Source of the DNA: Allomuricauda sp. NBRC 101325
GTDB taxonomy: Bacteria; Bacteroidota; Bacteroidia; Flavobacteriales; Flavobacteriaceae
Reading direction: 5' to 3'
Assembly (NCBI RefSeq): GCF_030268205.1
Contig: NZ_BSQF01000004.1
Location: forward strand, 124,001-188,000
DNA: 64,000 nt
Notes under the pieces: model-generated
Seen by the model: the letters and a program-made list of their open reading frames with translations, nothing else
Database searches by the model: none
What the model was told of the DNA's origin: nothing
Shown: in pieces, positions 14,155-20,839 of the stretch
How positions within the stretch are numbered: position 1 is the stretch's first letter
Layout of the letters: each line of letters opens with the position of its first letter
Made by a program: the position numbers and the translations under genes

Positions 14155-14715
14155 TCAGAGATCCTCTAGGTTTTTAAGGCGTTTCTTTTTCAGTTTTTTA
14201 TAATAGGATGGCGTCAGTCCCGTTATTTTTTTAAACTGATATGATAAATGTGAGACACTACTGTAATGAAGCAAATAGGATATTTCGGTCATGTTCAACT
14301 CGTCATAGAACATAAGCTCCTTTACCCTTTCAATTTTGTTCATGATTATATATTGCTGAATGGTGATTCCCTTTACCTCTGAAAACATATTCGCCAAATA
14401 GGTATAGTCATAGCCCAATTTTTCGCTGATGTGGTCAGAGTAGTTCACTTTTGGTAGTTCATCTGAATAATGGATCATTTCTATGATCACCGACTTGATT
14501 TTTTCAATGATGATCTTCCTGTTGTCATCAAGTAGTTGGAGACCATATTTCATTAAACTTTCACGTAACTGCTCTTTTTGGAAATTGGTAATGTCTTCCA
14601 GAATTTCTATTGATCCAAGATCTACATTAACATAATTGAGACCAAGTTTTCTTAGTTCTTCCTTAACTACCATTTTACAGCGCAGGCTTACCATGTATTT
14701 TATATAAAGCAACAT
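14155..14715 (-). CDS. AraC-family regulator with HMA-like N-terminus
   Basis: 187 aa from the ATG at 14715, which gives the family start MLLYIKYMVSLRCKMVV; a longer frame begins at 14805. Residues 1-65 resemble the ferredoxin-like heavy-metal-associated domain found at the start of a group of flavobacterial AraC proteins. In that group a CxxC is usual, but here the first Cys is Ser (S-L-R-C). The C-terminal 90 residues form a standard AraC double helix-turn-helix (YLANMFSEVKGITIQQYI and EISYLLHYSSVSHLSYQFKKITGLTPS). It is expected to bind DNA and respond to a metal or another signal; its target is unknown. It stands alone beside an IS6 relic and between the two direct repeats, so it may have been brought by a mobile element. 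Confidence 0.8.
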   Translation of the reverse strand: MLLYIKYMVSLRCKMVVKEELRKLGLNYVNVDLGSIEILEDITNFQKEQLRESLMKYGLQLLDDNRKIIIEKIKSVIIEMIHYSDELPKVNYSDHISEKLGYDYTYLANMFSEVKGITIQQYIIMNKIERVKELMFYDELNMTEISYLLHYSSVSHLSYQFKKITGLTPSYYKKLKKKRLKNLEDL

Positions 14716-14920
14716 TGTGTTCCGTTTTTTAGTTCTATGGTATGTTAAGCAATTTGTTTGATACTGTTTGACTGTTAAAAATCTGGGGACAGTAAATAAG
14801 GCCATGTAAAATGAAGAAACAGAAAATCAACTTTAAATTAAGATTTTTGACCTGGCCCTTTTTCCAAATGGAGTTTTTAGAAAGATACGATATCTTAATG
14901 GAAACACCATTTTTTTGCTA

Positions 14921-14941
14921 ATGAAACCAACCGAATTTTAG
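14921..14941 (+). repeat. direct repeat B (pair with 13893)
   Basis: Near-identical second copy of the sequence at 13893-13914, about 1.03 kb away, flanking the AraC gene. Possibly a remnant of an IS end or target duplication. Confidence 0.6.
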
Positions 14942-15451
14942 AAAAGGAATCTATGGATATTTTATTGTGCCAGAAACAAATCTCCTGATTTTCGAATAGG
15001 CCATTAAAGGGACTTGAATCCTATGGGCTCTGATTACTGAATTTTGCAAAATATTATTCCATAAACCGCCAACCTAGGATATATGTAACATTTAAATAGA
15101 TTTCTGTTGTGAACTTAGCAAATGTAACACCACCTTTGTTAGGTTCGTTCACTATCAATATATCATACAGCACCTATTTTATACTATGAAAAAGAGGAAT
15201 TTTGCACTGGTAACCCTTGCAGGGACAAGACGTTACTTAAACCACGTGTTTTTATTATGGGAAAAGCATACAAGCCAAGGAAGTACAAAAAAGGGAAAAG
15301 GAATTTCTATAGTTAATATAATGCCGAAGTGGACTGAAGGGGCAATAGGTGAATGGAAAACTTTGAGTTCAACTAACGGTACTTAATTAACCGGACAAAC
15401 AGTATTTATTTAACCAGTATGTAATTGCTTCTGATTTTTTTCGGAGGCTCA

Positions 15452-15486
15452 AAAAAGGGCAGGAACTAAAAAACACTGCCCTTTTT
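15452..15486 (+). terminator. rho-independent terminator
   Basis: Perfect 11-bp stem AAAAAGGGCAG / CTGCCCTTTTT around a 13-nt loop, with a T-run inside the descending arm. No intact gene lies directly upstream, so it may be left from a lost gene. Confidence 0.7.
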
Positions 15487-15790
15487 AAACCTAAGTCTGG
15501 GATCTTAGCCCAGTATGGTGATCAACAAGTAAATCAACACCCTTGTGAGAAATTCTTATCCTATTCATCCTCTACATGGCAATCCTTTTTCTGATTGCCG
15601 TACAATACTAATTGAATTCCATATCGACTATAAATATAACCCATGTCAAAAGAAAAATAGGGAAAGAAACAGTCAGGAAAAAATATACCACAAAAACACC
15701 TAAGGAGAAAAGGGCAGCAAAAAAGGCCAAGAGGAATGCCAAAAATAGATCGGAATAGGAGGGAAGCTATTAATCTTATATTTTTTGATA

Positions 15791-16132
15791 ATGGAAAAGG
15801 GTGAATTTGAGGAGTCGATAAAGTTTAACCTTTCGGATATACTGGAATTTAATTCCAATGCCATCGTAGTAAAGAACATATGTATCCAGAATCATTGTGT
15901 CATACAAGCTTATACTTTTGATTTTGGTAAGGTATTGTCTCTAAGTGAATCTCCTTTTATTAGATTCATCCATATCATTGAAGGTAAGGCCGAGGTTGTT
16001 ATAAATGGTAATTCCACATTTATGCAGCAAGGGGATTCCATACTTATCCCGGCCAGTAATTCCAGTTCGATTGAAGCAAACCATAAGTTCAAAATGATTT
16101 GCACCACTATTAAAAGTGAAACAATACTTTGA
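15791..16132 (+). CDS. cupin-fold small protein
   Basis: 113 aa from the ATG at 15791 (two further codons from a TTG are possible but unlikely). The C-terminal two thirds form a single cupin barrel: FIRFIHIIEGKAEVVINGNSTFMQQGDSILIPASNSSSIEA matches the second half of cupin motif 1 and motif 2. The usual metal-binding histidines are mostly absent, so it may bind a ligand without catalysis. The stop TGA overlaps the ATG of the next gene (TGATG), so the two are translationally coupled. The function is unknown. Confidence 0.7.
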   Translation: MEKGEFEESIKFNLSDILEFNSNAIVVKNICIQNHCVIQAYTFDFGKVLSLSESPFIRFIHIIEGKAEVVINGNSTFMQQGDSILIPASNSSSIEANHKFKMICTTIKSETIL

Positions 16133-16383
16133 TGAATTTGAAAATTAAAAGGCAATTGAATCCAAGTAAGGCAGCTATGAAAAATAGATACAAGGAAGGT
16201 GATTTCGTTATTGCTAAAGTTAGACCCAGTGTCATACTTGTAATACAAGTAGACATCCGAAATGTCTATTACTGTGCTATCCTTGACAACAACACTGCGA
16301 AGGAACTGGTTTATTTGAATAGTGAACTTAGACCGTATTTAGGTCATCTGTTTCCGAGTAAATGGAATCGAATGATTTTGTGA
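16132..16383 (+). CDS. hypothetical protein coupled to cupin gene, 83 aa
   Basis: It starts at the ATG that overlaps the cupin stop codon. The core Y-K-E-G-D-F-V-I-A-K-V-R-P-S-V-I-L-V-I-Q with Y-Y-C-A-I-L and K-E-L-V-Y-L-N-S-E-L resembles a small beta-barrel family of flavobacterial hypothetical proteins; I know no function for it. There is no signal peptide or membrane segment. The next small gene starts inside its last 22 bases in another frame, giving a three-gene overlapping set. Confidence 0.6.
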   Translation: MNLKIKRQLNPSKAAMKNRYKEGDFVIAKVRPSVILVIQVDIRNVYYCAILDNNTAKELVYLNSELRPYLGHLFPSKWNRMIL

Positions 16384-16511
16384 AACAGGGCGGGTTGGTT
16401 TATTGCCAAAATGAATTTGTAATCATCTTGGATAAATTTGCGATAGGTTTAGTCGAAGTTATGAACAACGGCCATTTTTCCAAGAAGAACCATTTTCCAT
16501 CCATAAGTTAA
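16362..16511 (+). CDS. small protein, 49 aa, overlapping gene
   Basis: An ATG at 16362, inside the end of the 83-aa gene, opens a 49-codon frame (MESNDFVKQGGLVYCQNEF... ending F-P-S-I-S). The hydrophobic-acidic alternation (EFVIILDKFAIGLVEVM) and the tight overlap on the same strand support a real small gene that is translationally coupled to its neighbour. No family is recognised. It could instead be the displaced C-terminus of the upstream protein after a frameshift. Confidence 0.45.
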   Translation: MESNDFVKQGGLVYCQNEFVIILDKFAIGLVEVMNNGHFSKKNHFPSIS

Positions 16512-17331
16512 GGTCACAATCCTATGGGAATCGCTCTTGAATGCCATTCCTTTTGAAGGTTTTGAGGGCTTTTCAATATTAATTTATACTTATTTAACAT
16601 GAACATATGATATGGGCCACGATTGTTAAGTTCATCTTGATTCACTTTTTTATGGGTGTTATCAGAAGGTTTTACAGATATCCAATGATTGAAAGATACC
16701 ATTACAATTATTATGACCAATCCATAAAACTTGGAGGCAGATTGATTAATAACTGGTTATATTGTACTATCAATTCAACTACTCTTATCATTTCAGTTTT
16801 CTTGACATTTATTGTATTTTTTGTTCTTTAGTTTGATTACCCAAAACTCGATCAATACCTATATTGCTCTAAAATGTAGATACCCCGATTTTAAGGACAG
16901 GTCTTCTCCGAATCTTTATTTAAGATATTGTGGAAGGGGAATTATATCCTTTTAATAATAATTTCCCCCTATACCTTGGGTGGAGATTTCTTTCAATTTA
17001 AAAGATACTTGGAATAGAGATAAGTACAATAAGTTACTGGATTTTAAACGGCTGAAATCCAATTTAAATGCGTTCCTTTACATCACATTAAAATTATGGA
17101 CGAAAATTATACCTGTCCTTAAATAAAAAAGACTGCCCAACATATCACCACATTACTTAAAGGGCCACTTCTTAATTATTTTTCGCTTGTACCAATATTC
17201 AAATTTCGTGGGCCTTTGCACCTATTAGCGAAATTATAGTTGTTATCCACTTTAAAGTGCCTACCCTATACTGCACTCTTTTTTGCTATCAGCTTCATCA
17301 TGATTTGTACATCACTTATAAAATAAACCAT
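16512..17331. other. AT-rich intergenic region before rpsU paralog
   Basis: About 820 bp. A 74-codon frame (16607-16831, +) would encode a hydrophobic, tyrosine-rich peptide, but its composition simply mirrors the AT-rich DNA and I do not count it as a gene. I see no RNA gene. The promoter of the S21/NYN/sigma operon should lie in the right-hand part. Confidence 0.45.
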
Positions 17332-17526
17332 ATGCTTAAAATTAAAATCGTACCTGGGGAGAATATTGATCGGGCACTGAAGAGATATCGCAATAAAGTT
17401 CGCAGCACCAAACAGTTGACTCAAATTAGAAACAATAAGGAGTTCACAAAAAAGTCCACAGCGAAGCGGGAACAGATGGCAAAGGCCGTTTACCTAAATG
17501 AATATAAGCTAAAGATGGAAGAATAG
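17332..17526 (+). CDS. rpsU: ribosomal protein bS21 paralog
   Basis: 64 aa from the ATG at 17332, exactly the length of flavobacterial bS21; an in-frame codon at 17257 would add 25 unrelated residues. The start L-K-I-K-I-V-P-G-E-N-I-D-R-A-L-K-R-Y-R-N-K-V matches the family, and the rest is basic and helical. bS21 binds the 30S platform near the 3' end of 16S rRNA, and in Bacteroidota it has been linked to masking of the anti-Shine-Dalgarno sequence. The context (an RNase and a sigma factor, not the usual chromosomal site) and the divergent middle suggest a second copy. It is followed after 4 bp by the NYN gene. Confidence 0.85.
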   Translation: MLKIKIVPGENIDRALKRYRNKVRSTKQLTQIRNNKEFTKKSTAKREQMAKAVYLNEYKLKMEE

Positions 17527-17530
17527 ATTT

Positions 17531-18265
17531 ATGGAGAAGGATCTAAACTTGGCTGTCTTGATCGATGGAGACAACATTCCTTCAAAGTATGTGAAGGAAA
17601 TGCTGGAGGAAATTGCAAAATATGGGAATCCAAGCATCAAAAGGATCTATGGAGAATGGACAAAGCCAAGTCTTGTAAAATGGAAGGATGTACTGCTTAA
17701 AAATGCCATTACACCAATCCAACAATACGGATATACAACGGGCAAAAATTCCACCGACAGTGCCATGATCATTGATGCAATGGACATACTTTATTCGGGT
17801 AAAGTAAATGGTTTTTCCCTGGTGTCAAGCGATAGTGACTTTACTCGATTGGCCATTCGATTAAGAGAGGCAGGAATGACCGTATTTGGAATTGGTGAGC
17901 GAAAGACCCCCGACCCCTTTATTGTATCTTGTGATAAGTTCATATATCTTGAAATTCTACACAAAACCAGTACGGAGGAATCACAGTCAATTAAAAAGGA
18001 TAAAATAAATCCTGTTGACAAAATCACCCCGAAGGTCATCCAGTTAATCCTTTCCACAATTGCAGATTTAGAGGATGAAGATGGCTGGGCTTTCTTAGGA
18101 GAGGTTGGGGCATTACTTCAAAAAAAACAACCCAATTTCGATGCTAGGAATTTTGGATTTCGAAAACTCACACCGCTTGTTAAGTCCATTAATCAAATTG
18201 AAACTGAGTCCCGAAAAAACCCCAAAGGCAGTGGAAACCTAATTTATGTTAGGTCAACTACTTAA
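17531..18265 (+). CDS. NYN-domain ribonuclease with C-terminal LOTUS (OST-HTH) domain
   Basis: 244 aa, cytoplasmic. Residues 5-145 form a NYN/PIN-like nuclease domain with acidic residues Asp12 (LIDGDN, Asn15), Asp76, Asp82 (STDSAMIID), Asp101 and Asp103 (SSDSDF), the expected metal-binding set for RNA cleavage. Residues about 165-242 (ITPKVIQLILSTI... through LIYVRS) match the OST-HTH/LOTUS winged helix, which binds RNA. This DUF88-like NYN-LOTUS architecture is common in bacteria, but targets are mostly unknown. It lies between a bS21 paralog (4 bp gap) and an RpoD paralog (9 bp gap), so a role in RNA or ribosome quality control under the conditions that express the operon is plausible. Confidence 0.9.
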   Translation: MEKDLNLAVLIDGDNIPSKYVKEMLEEIAKYGNPSIKRIYGEWTKPSLVKWKDVLLKNAITPIQQYGYTTGKNSTDSAMIIDAMDILYSGKVNGFSLVSSDSDFTRLAIRLREAGMTVFGIGERKTPDPFIVSCDKFIYLEILHKTSTEESQSIKKDKINPVDKITPKVIQLILSTIADLEDEDGWAFLGEVGALLQKKQPNFDARNFGFRKLTPLVKSINQIETESRKNPKGSGNLIYVRSTT

Positions 18266-18274
18266 AATTAAGTT

Positions 18275-19141
18275 ATGCGATCACTTACCATATCCAAGCA
18301 GATTACCAATAGGGAAAACCCCGCTCTTTCAAAATATTTGAACGATATAAGCCGCATTCCAATGATAACAGCGGAGGAAGAGGTAGAACTGGCCATTCGA
18401 ATTAGAAATGGTGATGCTGAGGCATTGGAAAAACTGATCGTTTCCAACTTAAGATTTGTGGTATCCGTTGCCAAACAATATCAGTCGAGGGGGCTAAACT
18501 TACATGATTTGATCAATGAAGGCAATCTCGGACTGGTCAAGGCGGTATCCAAATTTGATGAGACCAGAGGTTTCAAGTTTATCTCTTATGCGGTTTGGTG
18601 GATTCGCCAAGGGATTATCCAGGCAGTTTCCGAGAAATCAAGAATAGTTCGATTGCCTTTGAACAAAATAAATGTAATCAATAAAATTAATGGTGTAACG
18701 GCAAAGTTTGAGCAATCTCATCAAAGACCTCCTACTGCAGATGAAATGTCGGAACTGATTGATTTTTCAATTTCTGAAATTCAACTTTGTTTAGAACATA
18801 CTTCTTGGTCAATTTCTATGGATAAGTCCCTAAGACCAGAAGAGGAGGGGTTTAGTTTACATGATCTTATTGAATCTGAAAGCTTTAATAGCCCTGAACA
18901 TGATTTGATAAATAGATCACTACAAATAGAAATTGAAGGTGTTATGGATTTACTTTCCAATAGAGAGGCCTATGTAATTAAAATGCTTTATGGAATAGGC
19001 GGAGGAGACCCGTTGGGAATGGAACAAATTGCAAATGATTTGGATATTACCACAGAGAGGGTTAGACAGCTAAAAACAAAAGCATTGACTAAATTACGTG
19101 AGTCTTCAAAAGCAAATTTTCTTAGGGAATTTATAAATTGA
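18275..19141 (+). CDS. RpoD-like sigma factor (second copy)
   Basis: 288 aa, the length of the short Bacteroidota RpoD. Region 1.2 (NPALSKYLNDISRIPMITAEEEV), region 2 (LRFVVSVAKQYQSRGLNLHDLINEGNLGLVKA, FISYAVWWIRQGI), region 3 and region 4 (MEQIANDLDITTERVRQLKTKAL) are all present. Region 2.4 is almost as in the housekeeping factor, but the linker and the region 4.2 recognition helix differ from the usual L-T-R-E-R-V-R-Q-I, so the -35-type (-33) specificity may be altered. It is the last gene of the S21/NYN/sigma operon. The recurring motif lies 60 bp after its stop. I take it as a group 2-type accessory sigma factor. Confidence 0.88.
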   Translation: MRSLTISKQITNRENPALSKYLNDISRIPMITAEEEVELAIRIRNGDAEALEKLIVSNLRFVVSVAKQYQSRGLNLHDLINEGNLGLVKAVSKFDETRGFKFISYAVWWIRQGIIQAVSEKSRIVRLPLNKINVINKINGVTAKFEQSHQRPPTADEMSELIDFSISEIQLCLEHTSWSISMDKSLRPEEEGFSLHDLIESESFNSPEHDLINRSLQIEIEGVMDLLSNREAYVIKMLYGIGGGDPLGMEQIANDLDITTERVRQLKTKALTKLRESSKANFLREFIN

Positions 19142-19200
19142 GCATCCAATCAAGTTAGATTACGCTTTCCCATGGAATAGTTGTATTGAAGAGAAAGGCA

Positions 19201-19218
19201 ATCGTTTATTTGAACTTT
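19201..19218 (+). repeat. recurring intergenic motif, copy 4
   Basis: Exact ATCGTTTATTTGAACTTT, 60 bp downstream of the sigma-factor gene. The following 500 bp hold no gene I can support. Confidence 0.6.
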
Positions 19219-19726
19219 AGCCATTGTATTGACTAAATATAATTTTTCAATTTACGAGATTTATAGTATTCTATCCATGACTTAATTCTACGTACGAAAA
19301 TTTTCAAAATCGTTTACGGTCAAGAATACATTTGATCAATCAAATCTTTGTGCTTGTAAACCAAGATACACTGTAAAATTGAAGAACCATCTTAGGGACT
19401 TAATTTAGGATTCTCTTTTTAGGTTCTCCTGTTTTCTGATAGATACTTAGAAAATTTTCAACTTTGTATGAATATACCTATTTGGCTGGTTCTATTTGAA
19501 ACAAATAGATAAAGAAAAGCCAATATCTTAAAACAAAAATCAATTTCCACAATAGTAAAAAACCGTCCTTTAAATTTAAAACAAGTCTGCTCCATTTTTA
19601 GTTGAGGAGTTACCATAACAATTTAAGGATCTTAAGGTCAAAAATTTAATGAACACCGATTTAATGCAAATCATATGCTAGAATAAGGTTGTCGTTTTTA
19701 TCCAATTTCTCCGAAATCCTACCATC

Positions 19727-19734
19727 TAGTTTTG
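19727..19734 (+). promoter_or_regulatory. candidate -7 box (TAnnTTTG) of the biosynthetic operon
   Basis: TAGTTTTG fits the Bacteroidota -7 consensus. TTTC at 19706-19709 could serve as a weak -33 element with a 17-bp spacer, shorter than usual. The position would give a leader of about 15-20 nt before the methyltransferase start. Confidence 0.3.
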
Positions 19735-19753
19735 TCCCATAATTAAAAAATAT

Positions 19754-20839
19754 ATGGGAATGGAGAATTCAACAAAATTAGGAACAGCATTTGATTTGGA
19801 AAGGATACAGGCTTTTTCCGGACAGGTTGTCAATGATCTTTCTGCCGGTATGTCCGGGGTACTGGTCCAAATCGGGGAAGAGTTGGGGCTGTATAGGGCC
19901 ATGCGGAAACTAGGCCCCACCAATGCCAAAATACTAGCTGAAGAGACTGGAACTTTTGAACGATATGTCCAAGAATGGCTCAACAATCAGGCAGCTGGGG
20001 GTTACATTACCTATAATGTAGAACTTCAAACTTACCATTTGCCGGAAGAGCATGCCCTGGTCTTGGCCGATGGGAATAGTCCTTTTTTTATGGCCCCTGG
20101 ATTTCAAGTAGTCTCAAGTCTTTGGTATGATAAGGATAAAATAGTTAAGGACTTCAAAGAAGGGAAGGGCATTGGTTGGCACCAACACCATCATAATCTT
20201 TTTTTTGGAACCGAAGCCTTTTTCCGATCTGGGTATCGTGCCAATTTGGTCAGCGAGTGGATTCCAGACTTGGAAGGGATTGAAGATAAATTGATAAAAG
20301 GAGGAAAAGTAGCCGATATCGGATGTGGACACGGGGCTTCAACGATTTTAATGGCCACCAAATACCCAAATTCTACCTTTTATGGATTTGACTACCACGC
20401 GGAATCCATTGAGACAGCAAAGCTCAGGGCAAAGGAAGTAGGGTTATCGAATATAGTTTTTAAGGTGGCATCAGCCATGGATTTCAAAGATTTTGGATTC
20501 GATCTTATTTGTTATATGGATGCCTTCCATGATTTTGGGAACCCCTTGGAAGCCCTCCAATATGCAAAGAACAAATTAAACGAAAATGGAAGTATTATGT
20601 TGGTCGAACCAGCCTCCTTTGACGAACTGGAAAAAAATTTCAATCCTATAGGAAGAATGTTCTATGCCGCTTCCACCACTCTTTGTGTCCCTCACGCCCA
20701 TTCACAAGATGGAGGTTATTGCCTCGGTGCACAAGCCGGGCCTGAACGGGTTCGACGTATAGTGGAAGAAGCAGGGTACAACGCATTTAAAATTGCACAG
20801 CGTACCCCAGTAAACCTTATTTATGAAATCAGAAAGTAA
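19754..20839 (+). CDS. SAM-dependent methyltransferase with winged-helix N-terminus
   Basis: 361 aa; a second in-frame ATG two codons on may be the real start. Residues about 20-95 resemble the winged-helix dimerisation domain of small-molecule O-methyltransferases. A class I Rossmann domain follows, with motif I V-A-D-I-G-C-G-H-G (about residue 195), an acidic FYGFDYH after strand 2, and D-L-I-C-Y-M-D-A-F-H-D at motif IV. It transfers a methyl group from SAM, probably to an O or N atom of a small metabolite. It is the first gene of the run 19754-27516, next to a LysE exporter, an acyltransferase, PhzF and a PLP decarboxylase, which suggests secondary metabolism. The substrate is unknown. Confidence 0.88.
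   Translation: MGMENSTKLGTAFDLERIQAFSGQVVNDLSAGMSGVLVQIGEELGLYRAMRKLGPTNAKILAEETGTFERYVQEWLNNQAAGGYITYNVELQTYHLPEEHALVLADGNSPFFMAPGFQVVSSLWYDKDKIVKDFKEGKGIGWHQHHHNLFFGTEAFFRSGYRANLVSEWIPDLEGIEDKLIKGGKVADIGCGHGASTILMATKYPNSTFYGFDYHAESIETAKLRAKEVGLSNIVFKVASAMDFKDFGFDLICYMDAFHDFGNPLEALQYAKNKLNENGSIMLVEPASFDELEKNFNPIGRMFYAASTTLCVPHAHSQDGGYCLGAQAGPERVRRIVEEAGYNAFKIAQRTPVNLIYEIRK

Follow-up and report, generated by a model that had tools for sequence, protein, structure and literature searches.

The macromolecular synthesis operon rpsU-dnaG-rpoD holds the housekeeping rpsU and rpoD. The locus described here is like it in that an S21 gene comes first and an RpoD-type sigma factor gene belongs to the same operon, and unlike it in that there is no dnaG and no primase, a NYN-LOTUS gene occupies the middle position, the genes are accessory copies, and the unit is patchily distributed at varying sites. 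The likeness drawn between the two in the preliminary description of this DNA thus holds for two gene names but not for the housekeeping content. In F. johnsoniae, according to the available text of PMC9976891, bS21 holds the 16S tail with Tyr54 stacked on A1534, and a very strong extended Shine-Dalgarno (SD) sequence mediates the autoregulation of rpsU; the strong SD is common to the housekeeping rpsU genes examined here, whereas the rpsU2 gene of the module is without it. Paralogs of bS21 alter the proteome in Francisella, and an altered ribosome composition has been proposed for those of Francisella tularensis in the accessible part of PMC9578407. An extra bS21 gene is also what is found here but, unlike in Francisella tularensis, a sigma factor gene and an RNase gene of its own accompany the paralog, whose effect on translation is putative. 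Bacterial proteins that combine LK-nuclease (NYN) and OST-HTH domains have the same domain architecture as the module nuclease, and the portion of PMC2848206 available to us reports no conserved association of their genes with other known RNA-processing systems, whereas the module nuclease has a conserved neighbourhood. Several E. coli Csps reduce intrinsic termination, as stated with reference to Bae 2000 in the available excerpt of PMC9765468.

The window, which is the whole stretch of 64,000 nucleotides from Allomuricauda sp. NBRC 101325 that was analysed, contains the following features.

16937 to 19173, forward strand: cassette, given as the outer limits of the DNA common to other copies (BLASTN against 11 other loci).
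17058 to 17196, forward strand: 5' leader, conserved among cassette copies (29 distinct ones aligned; sequence model).
17129 to 17183, forward strand: terminator-like hairpin inside the leader (folds, stem counts, exchanges on both sides in relatives).
17332 to 17526, forward strand: rpsU2, accessory bS21 gene of 64 aa with its ATG at 17332 (Pfam Ribosomal_S21), without a Shine-Dalgarno sequence (SD energies).
17531 to 18265, forward strand: gene for a NYN (LK-nuclease) plus OST-HTH/LOTUS protein of 244 aa (Pfam; structure-model matches).
18275 to 19141, forward strand: gene for an accessory RpoD-like sigma factor of 288 aa with a diverged region 4.2 (Pfam, tree, region comparison).

The order rpsU, NYN-LOTUS, rpoD-like with gaps of 4 and 9 bp, as first read from the letters, is borne out by the open reading frames and by Pfam, all Pfam assignments of the trio being above the curated cut-offs. 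The rpsU2 product matches Pfam Ribosomal_S21 with an E-value of 5.3e-10 and 39.3 bits, which is above the cut-off of 27, and it scores 24.9 bits with the NCBIfam equivalog S21p, which is below the cut-off of 28.95. This sub-threshold score fits the status of a paralog, and by its profile scores the product is a bS21 paralog and not a standard bS21. The middle gene has both NYN (E 2.3e-37) and OST-HTH/LOTUS (E 2.3e-17) in one chain, and in the product of the third gene the sigma-70 regions 1.2, 2, 3 and 4 are all present.

The preliminary description took all three genes to be accessory, and copies in the window's own genome (3.69 Mb, 99.6% complete) agree with this. There are four places with an S21 gene, four with an RpoD-like gene and two with a NYN-LOTUS gene, both of the latter inside copies of the trio. 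The second whole trio lies at C3:355-2156, and its S21, nuclease and sigma factor are 98%, 95% and 90% identical, respectively, to those of the window. The separate rpsU and rpoD that were looked for besides the trio are there, two of each; the two remaining rpsU are 57% and 46% identical to the module S21 and the two remaining rpoD are 55% and 52% identical to the module sigma factor. With regions 1.2 to 4 and a separate primary sigma factor in the genome, the module sigma is of group 2 (RpoD-like, accessory) among the sigma-70 factors, as judged from Pfam, genome and tree. The S21 genes of the window and of genome G404 have zero differences, yet their nuclease genes differ with a dS of 0.48, which is a hint of recombination between copies.

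In the genus (Flagellimonas/Muricauda group) the module sigma factor was found in 29 of 60 genomes with 57-98% identity and, when one locus of each of these 29 was read, the full trio was present in 26, with an S21 of 64 aa in every one. Judged by its sigma factor, the trio is missing from 31 of the 60 genomes. Genes are lacking at three loci: in G434 the nuclease is absent and leader and sigma are kept, in G400 a nuclease remnant accompanies leader and sigma, and in G433 rpsU2 and nuclease are gone and the leader is directly upstream of the lone sigma gene. The module sigma gene of G408 (L094 219-1011) aligns in two frames near its end and looks frameshifted; G408 is counted among the 26. The gap is -8 to 8 nt between S21 and nuclease and 5 to 20 nt between nuclease and sigma in all copies. 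A strong NYN match is present in 179 of 397 genomes of the family, and the loci of the best-scoring matches were read for the trio, which was found in four further genera (G098, G143, G378, G154). Two genomes of a fifth genus, G380 and G223, have S21 and nuclease with a csp gene, and there is no sigma gene in the 7-10 kb read. Among the best 80 named loci, 7 have the trio and carry Flagellimonas, Muricauda, Allomuricauda or Croceivirga labels, and 72 showed neither S21 nor sigma within the sequence retrieved. One uncultured Tenacibaculum (L250 5001-7570) shows the order nuclease, sigma, S21, csp on one strand, with a gap of 320 nt 3' of the nuclease. Outside the family, where 49 genomes gave a match, S21 or sigma was near NYN in none of 40 loci from 39 genomes, and csp in one of the 40. 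Apart from the trio, G154 and G098 have a second RpoD-like sigma gene that is directly followed by a different S21 paralog (L134 1501-2560; L123 1284-2358). The conserved linkage in relatives on which the preliminary description had staked its reading is thus found, and by its recurrence in 26 of the 29 sigma-bearing genomes of the genus and in four further genera the linkage of the trio is more than chance. No description of a module combining rpsU, a NYN nuclease and a sigma factor was found in the open PMC literature searched, which agrees with the earlier remark that no such composition was known. Within the scope of that search the locus is new to the literature, and on these genome comparisons it is a genuine module of conserved genes.

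In 8 of the 11 loci compared by BLASTN, the DNA shared with the window starts at 16937-17060 and ends at 19087-19173, and in the remaining 3 part of the unit aligns. The cassette is about 2.1 kb in size, with the conserved unit starting about 270 nt upstream of rpsU2. More than 500 bp of flank is in common in 17 of 120 pairs of 16 genus loci, and since the flanks differ, the cassette by this comparison occupies many chromosomal sites. No transposase, integrase or terminal (inverted) repeat was seen at the cassette, and a clean empty site was not found, the matching place in G000 being 12.6 kb compared to 5.1 kb in G404 with the module. Upstream in the window (14155-16831) are genes for a regulator of AraC type, a protein of cupin type and two small proteins that belong to no assigned family, and varying subsets of these genes are found again next to complete or remnant trios in L106, L111, L112 and L113. 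There is also a gene cluster near the module in L104, L106, L109 and L111, of which the L104 member is a fatty acid desaturase, and csp adjoins this cluster in L104, L106 and L111. The dN/dS ratio was 0.00-0.17 for all three genes where computable in 14 pairs; by this measure all three are under purifying selection and, of the two longer proteins, the sigma factor changes fastest.

The leader is about 140 nt long, ends about 135 nt before rpsU2 and has a mean column identity of 77% over the 29 distinct copies. When its model was searched in 18 genomes, with 150 first-look candidates scored per genome, the leader was matched once for each module copy read in all 11 module genomes, with two matches in G000, and the best match in the 7 module-less genomes had an E-value of 0.017. 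A role of the leader as the motif of a wider regulon was rejected, as matches with E <0.01 were at modules only in these 18 genomes. A leader peptide was rejected as well; although many copies have a short ATGGAC..TAA frame, L078-L082 and others have lost its start codon. In the hairpin, AAGA..GCCC faces GGGC..TCTT, then follows TTATTTTT, giving a T-rich tail. Relatives have the stem exchanges GCTCT/AGAGC, ACCCT/AGGGT and GTCCT/AGGAC for GCCCT/AGGGC. The hairpin is weak, with a mean z-score of -0.6 and several copies that pair poorly, and the script that picked the best stem per sequence leans towards finding one. RNAalifold gave no pairs on the leader alignment made with MAFFT, in which the arms are offset. 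About 140 nt lie between the hairpin and rpsU2, which is room for a promoter. Rfam over 14800-19800 up to E 5 gave a single MIR8008 match far under the gathering score.

In three other genera (G098, G143, G380, G223), a cspA-family gene ends 58-72 nt before rpsU2, and the gap is filled by an intrinsic terminator that ends 18-28 nt before the start codon. When the gaps of these four loci were shuffled, 0 of 200 dinucleotide shuffles of each passed the terminator criteria. A promoter hardly fits between the terminator and the rpsU2 start, and this suggests read-through transcription into the csp-linked genes as the simplest reading. In neither the window nor the rest of its genus is the trio preceded by csp, and G378 and G154 have none upstream of it either; no terminator passed the criteria upstream of rpsU2 in G378, and G154 has a weaker one 49 nt upstream. 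The Csp-dependent antitermination of E. coli metY-rpsO (Bae 2000, as cited in the available excerpt of PMC9765468) is alike in that a cold-shock family gene and intrinsic terminators before expression-machinery genes are involved. It is unlike in that the csp gene here is immediately upstream of the genes concerned, and only in genera other than the window's, and in that antitermination is putative here.

With respect to translation, the housekeeping rpsU has a strong SD in 11 of 11 copies (-17.5 to -23.2 kcal/mol) and the module rpsU2 in 0 of 33 distinct copies, the strongest being -6.1 kcal/mol, where the energies were computed against an assumed 16S tail sequence. As it has no SD, rpsU2 should escape bS21 autoregulation. 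Other accessory S21 genes vary in SD, from about -1 in the third type of the genus to -9.8 in the sigma-adjacent one of G154. This third type (L003 1501-1698; L157-L159), also without SD, is conserved in the genus genomes looked at, and in the window's genome a predicted ORF of 182 aa precedes it. The module S21 is altered, as had been anticipated: all 28 module copies of the genus have other residues in place of P5, K7, G27, P41 and Q50, which do not vary among 11 housekeeping S21s, and Tyr54 is changed to His in 10 of the 28 and kept in the other 18 and in 6 of 6 module S21s of other genera. A canonical TAnnTTTG element lies 38-45 nt upstream in 11 of 11 housekeeping rpsU genes. Within the 500-600 nt examined upstream of rpsU2, 26 of 28 genus copies have no such element and the other two have it at a distance of more than 470 nt; this absence says little as a distinction of rpsU2, since 18 of 20 other rpoD genes are also without the element within 300 nt.

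The module sigma factor was compared to 21 housekeeping rows, two diverged paralogs being left out, and the identity was 0.82 in region 2.3-2.4 and 0.49 in region 4.2, so that the altered region 4.2 claimed earlier stands. The Arg of TRERVRQ, which we take to be the counterpart of E. coli R584 contacting the -35 element, gives way to Thr, Lys or Glu in 28 of the 30 module sigmas of the genus and is kept in the four from other genera. Since region 2.3-2.4 is close and region 4.2 with this Arg is diverged, we infer that in the genus the -10 use of the module sigma is similar and its -35 use changed. In the tree, a branch (99/98) separates 34 module sigmas from 24 others and, within the genus, the housekeeping branches differ little and the module branches are long. 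The AlphaFold model of the nuclease (12 sequences) has a mean pLDDT of 74.7 and a pTM of 0.54. Its best PDB match is the NYN domain of MARF1 (E 1.5e-6), and two LOTUS-type structures (2kpm/2kzv) come next among the six matches at E of 0.001 or lower. When the nuclease sequence was used to search the PDB, two LOTUS-domain structures alone were recovered. MARF1 is an endoribonuclease that also carries LOTUS domains. Asp12, Asp76, Asp101 and Asp103 are invariant in 12 sequences and are the predicted catalytic residues. The NYN tree groups 37 solo rows (89/99), but its outgroup L041 is very long, and the tree does not establish that the module NYNs arose once. A 385 kb viral contig (L040 4965-5726) encodes a NYN-LOTUS protein 62% identical to that of the window, and relatives occur in 370 plasmid records, mostly at <60% identity and many from Klebsiella, Rhizobium and Vibrio.

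Taken as a whole, the many-site cassette of leader, rpsU2, NYN-LOTUS nuclease and accessory sigma factor may act as a conditional gene-expression switch. This coordinated reading is plausible, and we favour it with slightly less than even confidence. In its favour are the linkage in the genus and in four further genera together with the permuted cluster of Tenacibaculum, the low dN/dS, the branch that sets the module sigmas apart, the terminators between csp and rpsU2, the lack of an SD on rpsU2, the diverged region 4.2, the Tyr54 exchanges and the nuclease-like fold. What speaks against it is that the genes can part, as in G433, G434 and G400 and in the sigma-less G380 and G223, that the window's genus has no csp before the trio and a weak leader hairpin with room for a promoter behind it, that csp is also missing upstream in G378 and G154 and a passing terminator in G378, and that Tyr54 is kept in most module S21s and the region 4.2 Arg in the four module sigmas of other genera. 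Some of these loci are what would be expected if only the sigma factor mattered, as a diverged group-2 sigma with its own regulon and with rpsU2 and nuclease as passengers or fine-tuners: the leader comes directly upstream of sigma in G433 after the loss of rpsU2 and nuclease, G434 and G400 also retain leader and sigma, and sigma changes faster than the nuclease, the other of the two longer proteins. However, rpsU2 and the nuclease are under purifying selection, and the two csp-linked loci of G380 and G223 have both of them without sigma, and we regard this explanation as rather unlikely. A takeover set derived from a phage or plasmid, kept as a selfish or domesticated cassette, is less probable still. 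Phages carry bS21 and sigma genes, the unit is at many sites with differing flanks (the 17 of 120 pairs above), NYN-LOTUS genes are on two viral contigs as well as in the 370 plasmid records, and phage bS21 as a translation redirector is proposed in the accessible sections of PMC9976891. On the other hand, phage sigmas match at about 40% identity at best, compared to 52-55% for the bacterium's own RpoDs, nothing resembling a transposase, integrase or terminal repeat is seen at the unit, and purifying selection is strong throughout the genus.

It is improbable that the module is a redundant reserve of ordinary S21 and RpoD which increases their dosage, next to a general RNase. The closeness of sigma regions 2.3-2.4 to housekeeping (0.82) and the Tyr54 kept in 18 of 28 genus module S21s would agree with it, but the five housekeeping-invariant residues are replaced in all 28, region 4.2 is diverged, and the regulatory start of rpsU2 differs in its SD. 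PIN-like nucleases occur in toxins, and together with the patchy distribution (29 of 60) this is what could be said for an anti-phage or toxin-antitoxin unit. PADLOC, however, was without a match for S21 or nuclease, and the module sigma matches the sigma part of MzaA only, with 224 bits against the NCBIfam cut-off of 800, and we give this explanation hardly any weight.

If the cassette is a conditional expression switch, the trio would be kept low because most transcripts would end at a terminator preceding rpsU2. Polymerase would read through this terminator once a CspA-family protein builds up, in cold or slow growth. Being without the strong SD of the housekeeping gene, rpsU2 would be translated by ordinary bS21-containing ribosomes and therefore bS21 feedback would not limit it. 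Its product would replace bS21 on new 30S subunits and thereby change start-site choice, the module sigma would send polymerase to promoters with a different -35 element, and the predicted nuclease would remove an RNA class recognised by its LOTUS domain and so help the new programme take over. More tentatively, this may be a mobile cassette in cellular bacteria by which promoter choice, start-site choice and RNA decay are changed at once, gated by intrinsic-terminator read-through (behind csp, or at the Flagellimonas leader) and with an SD-less S21 off autoregulation. If this is true, bacterial LOTUS nucleases gain a conserved functional context. The module gives these nucleases a gene neighbourhood, and csp read-through provides a regulatory logic open to testing. 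The existence of specialised ribosomes is described as open and debated in the available text of PMC9976891, and a natural operon in which a bS21 paralog is joined by a sigma factor gene and an RNase gene of its own would make this question directly testable.
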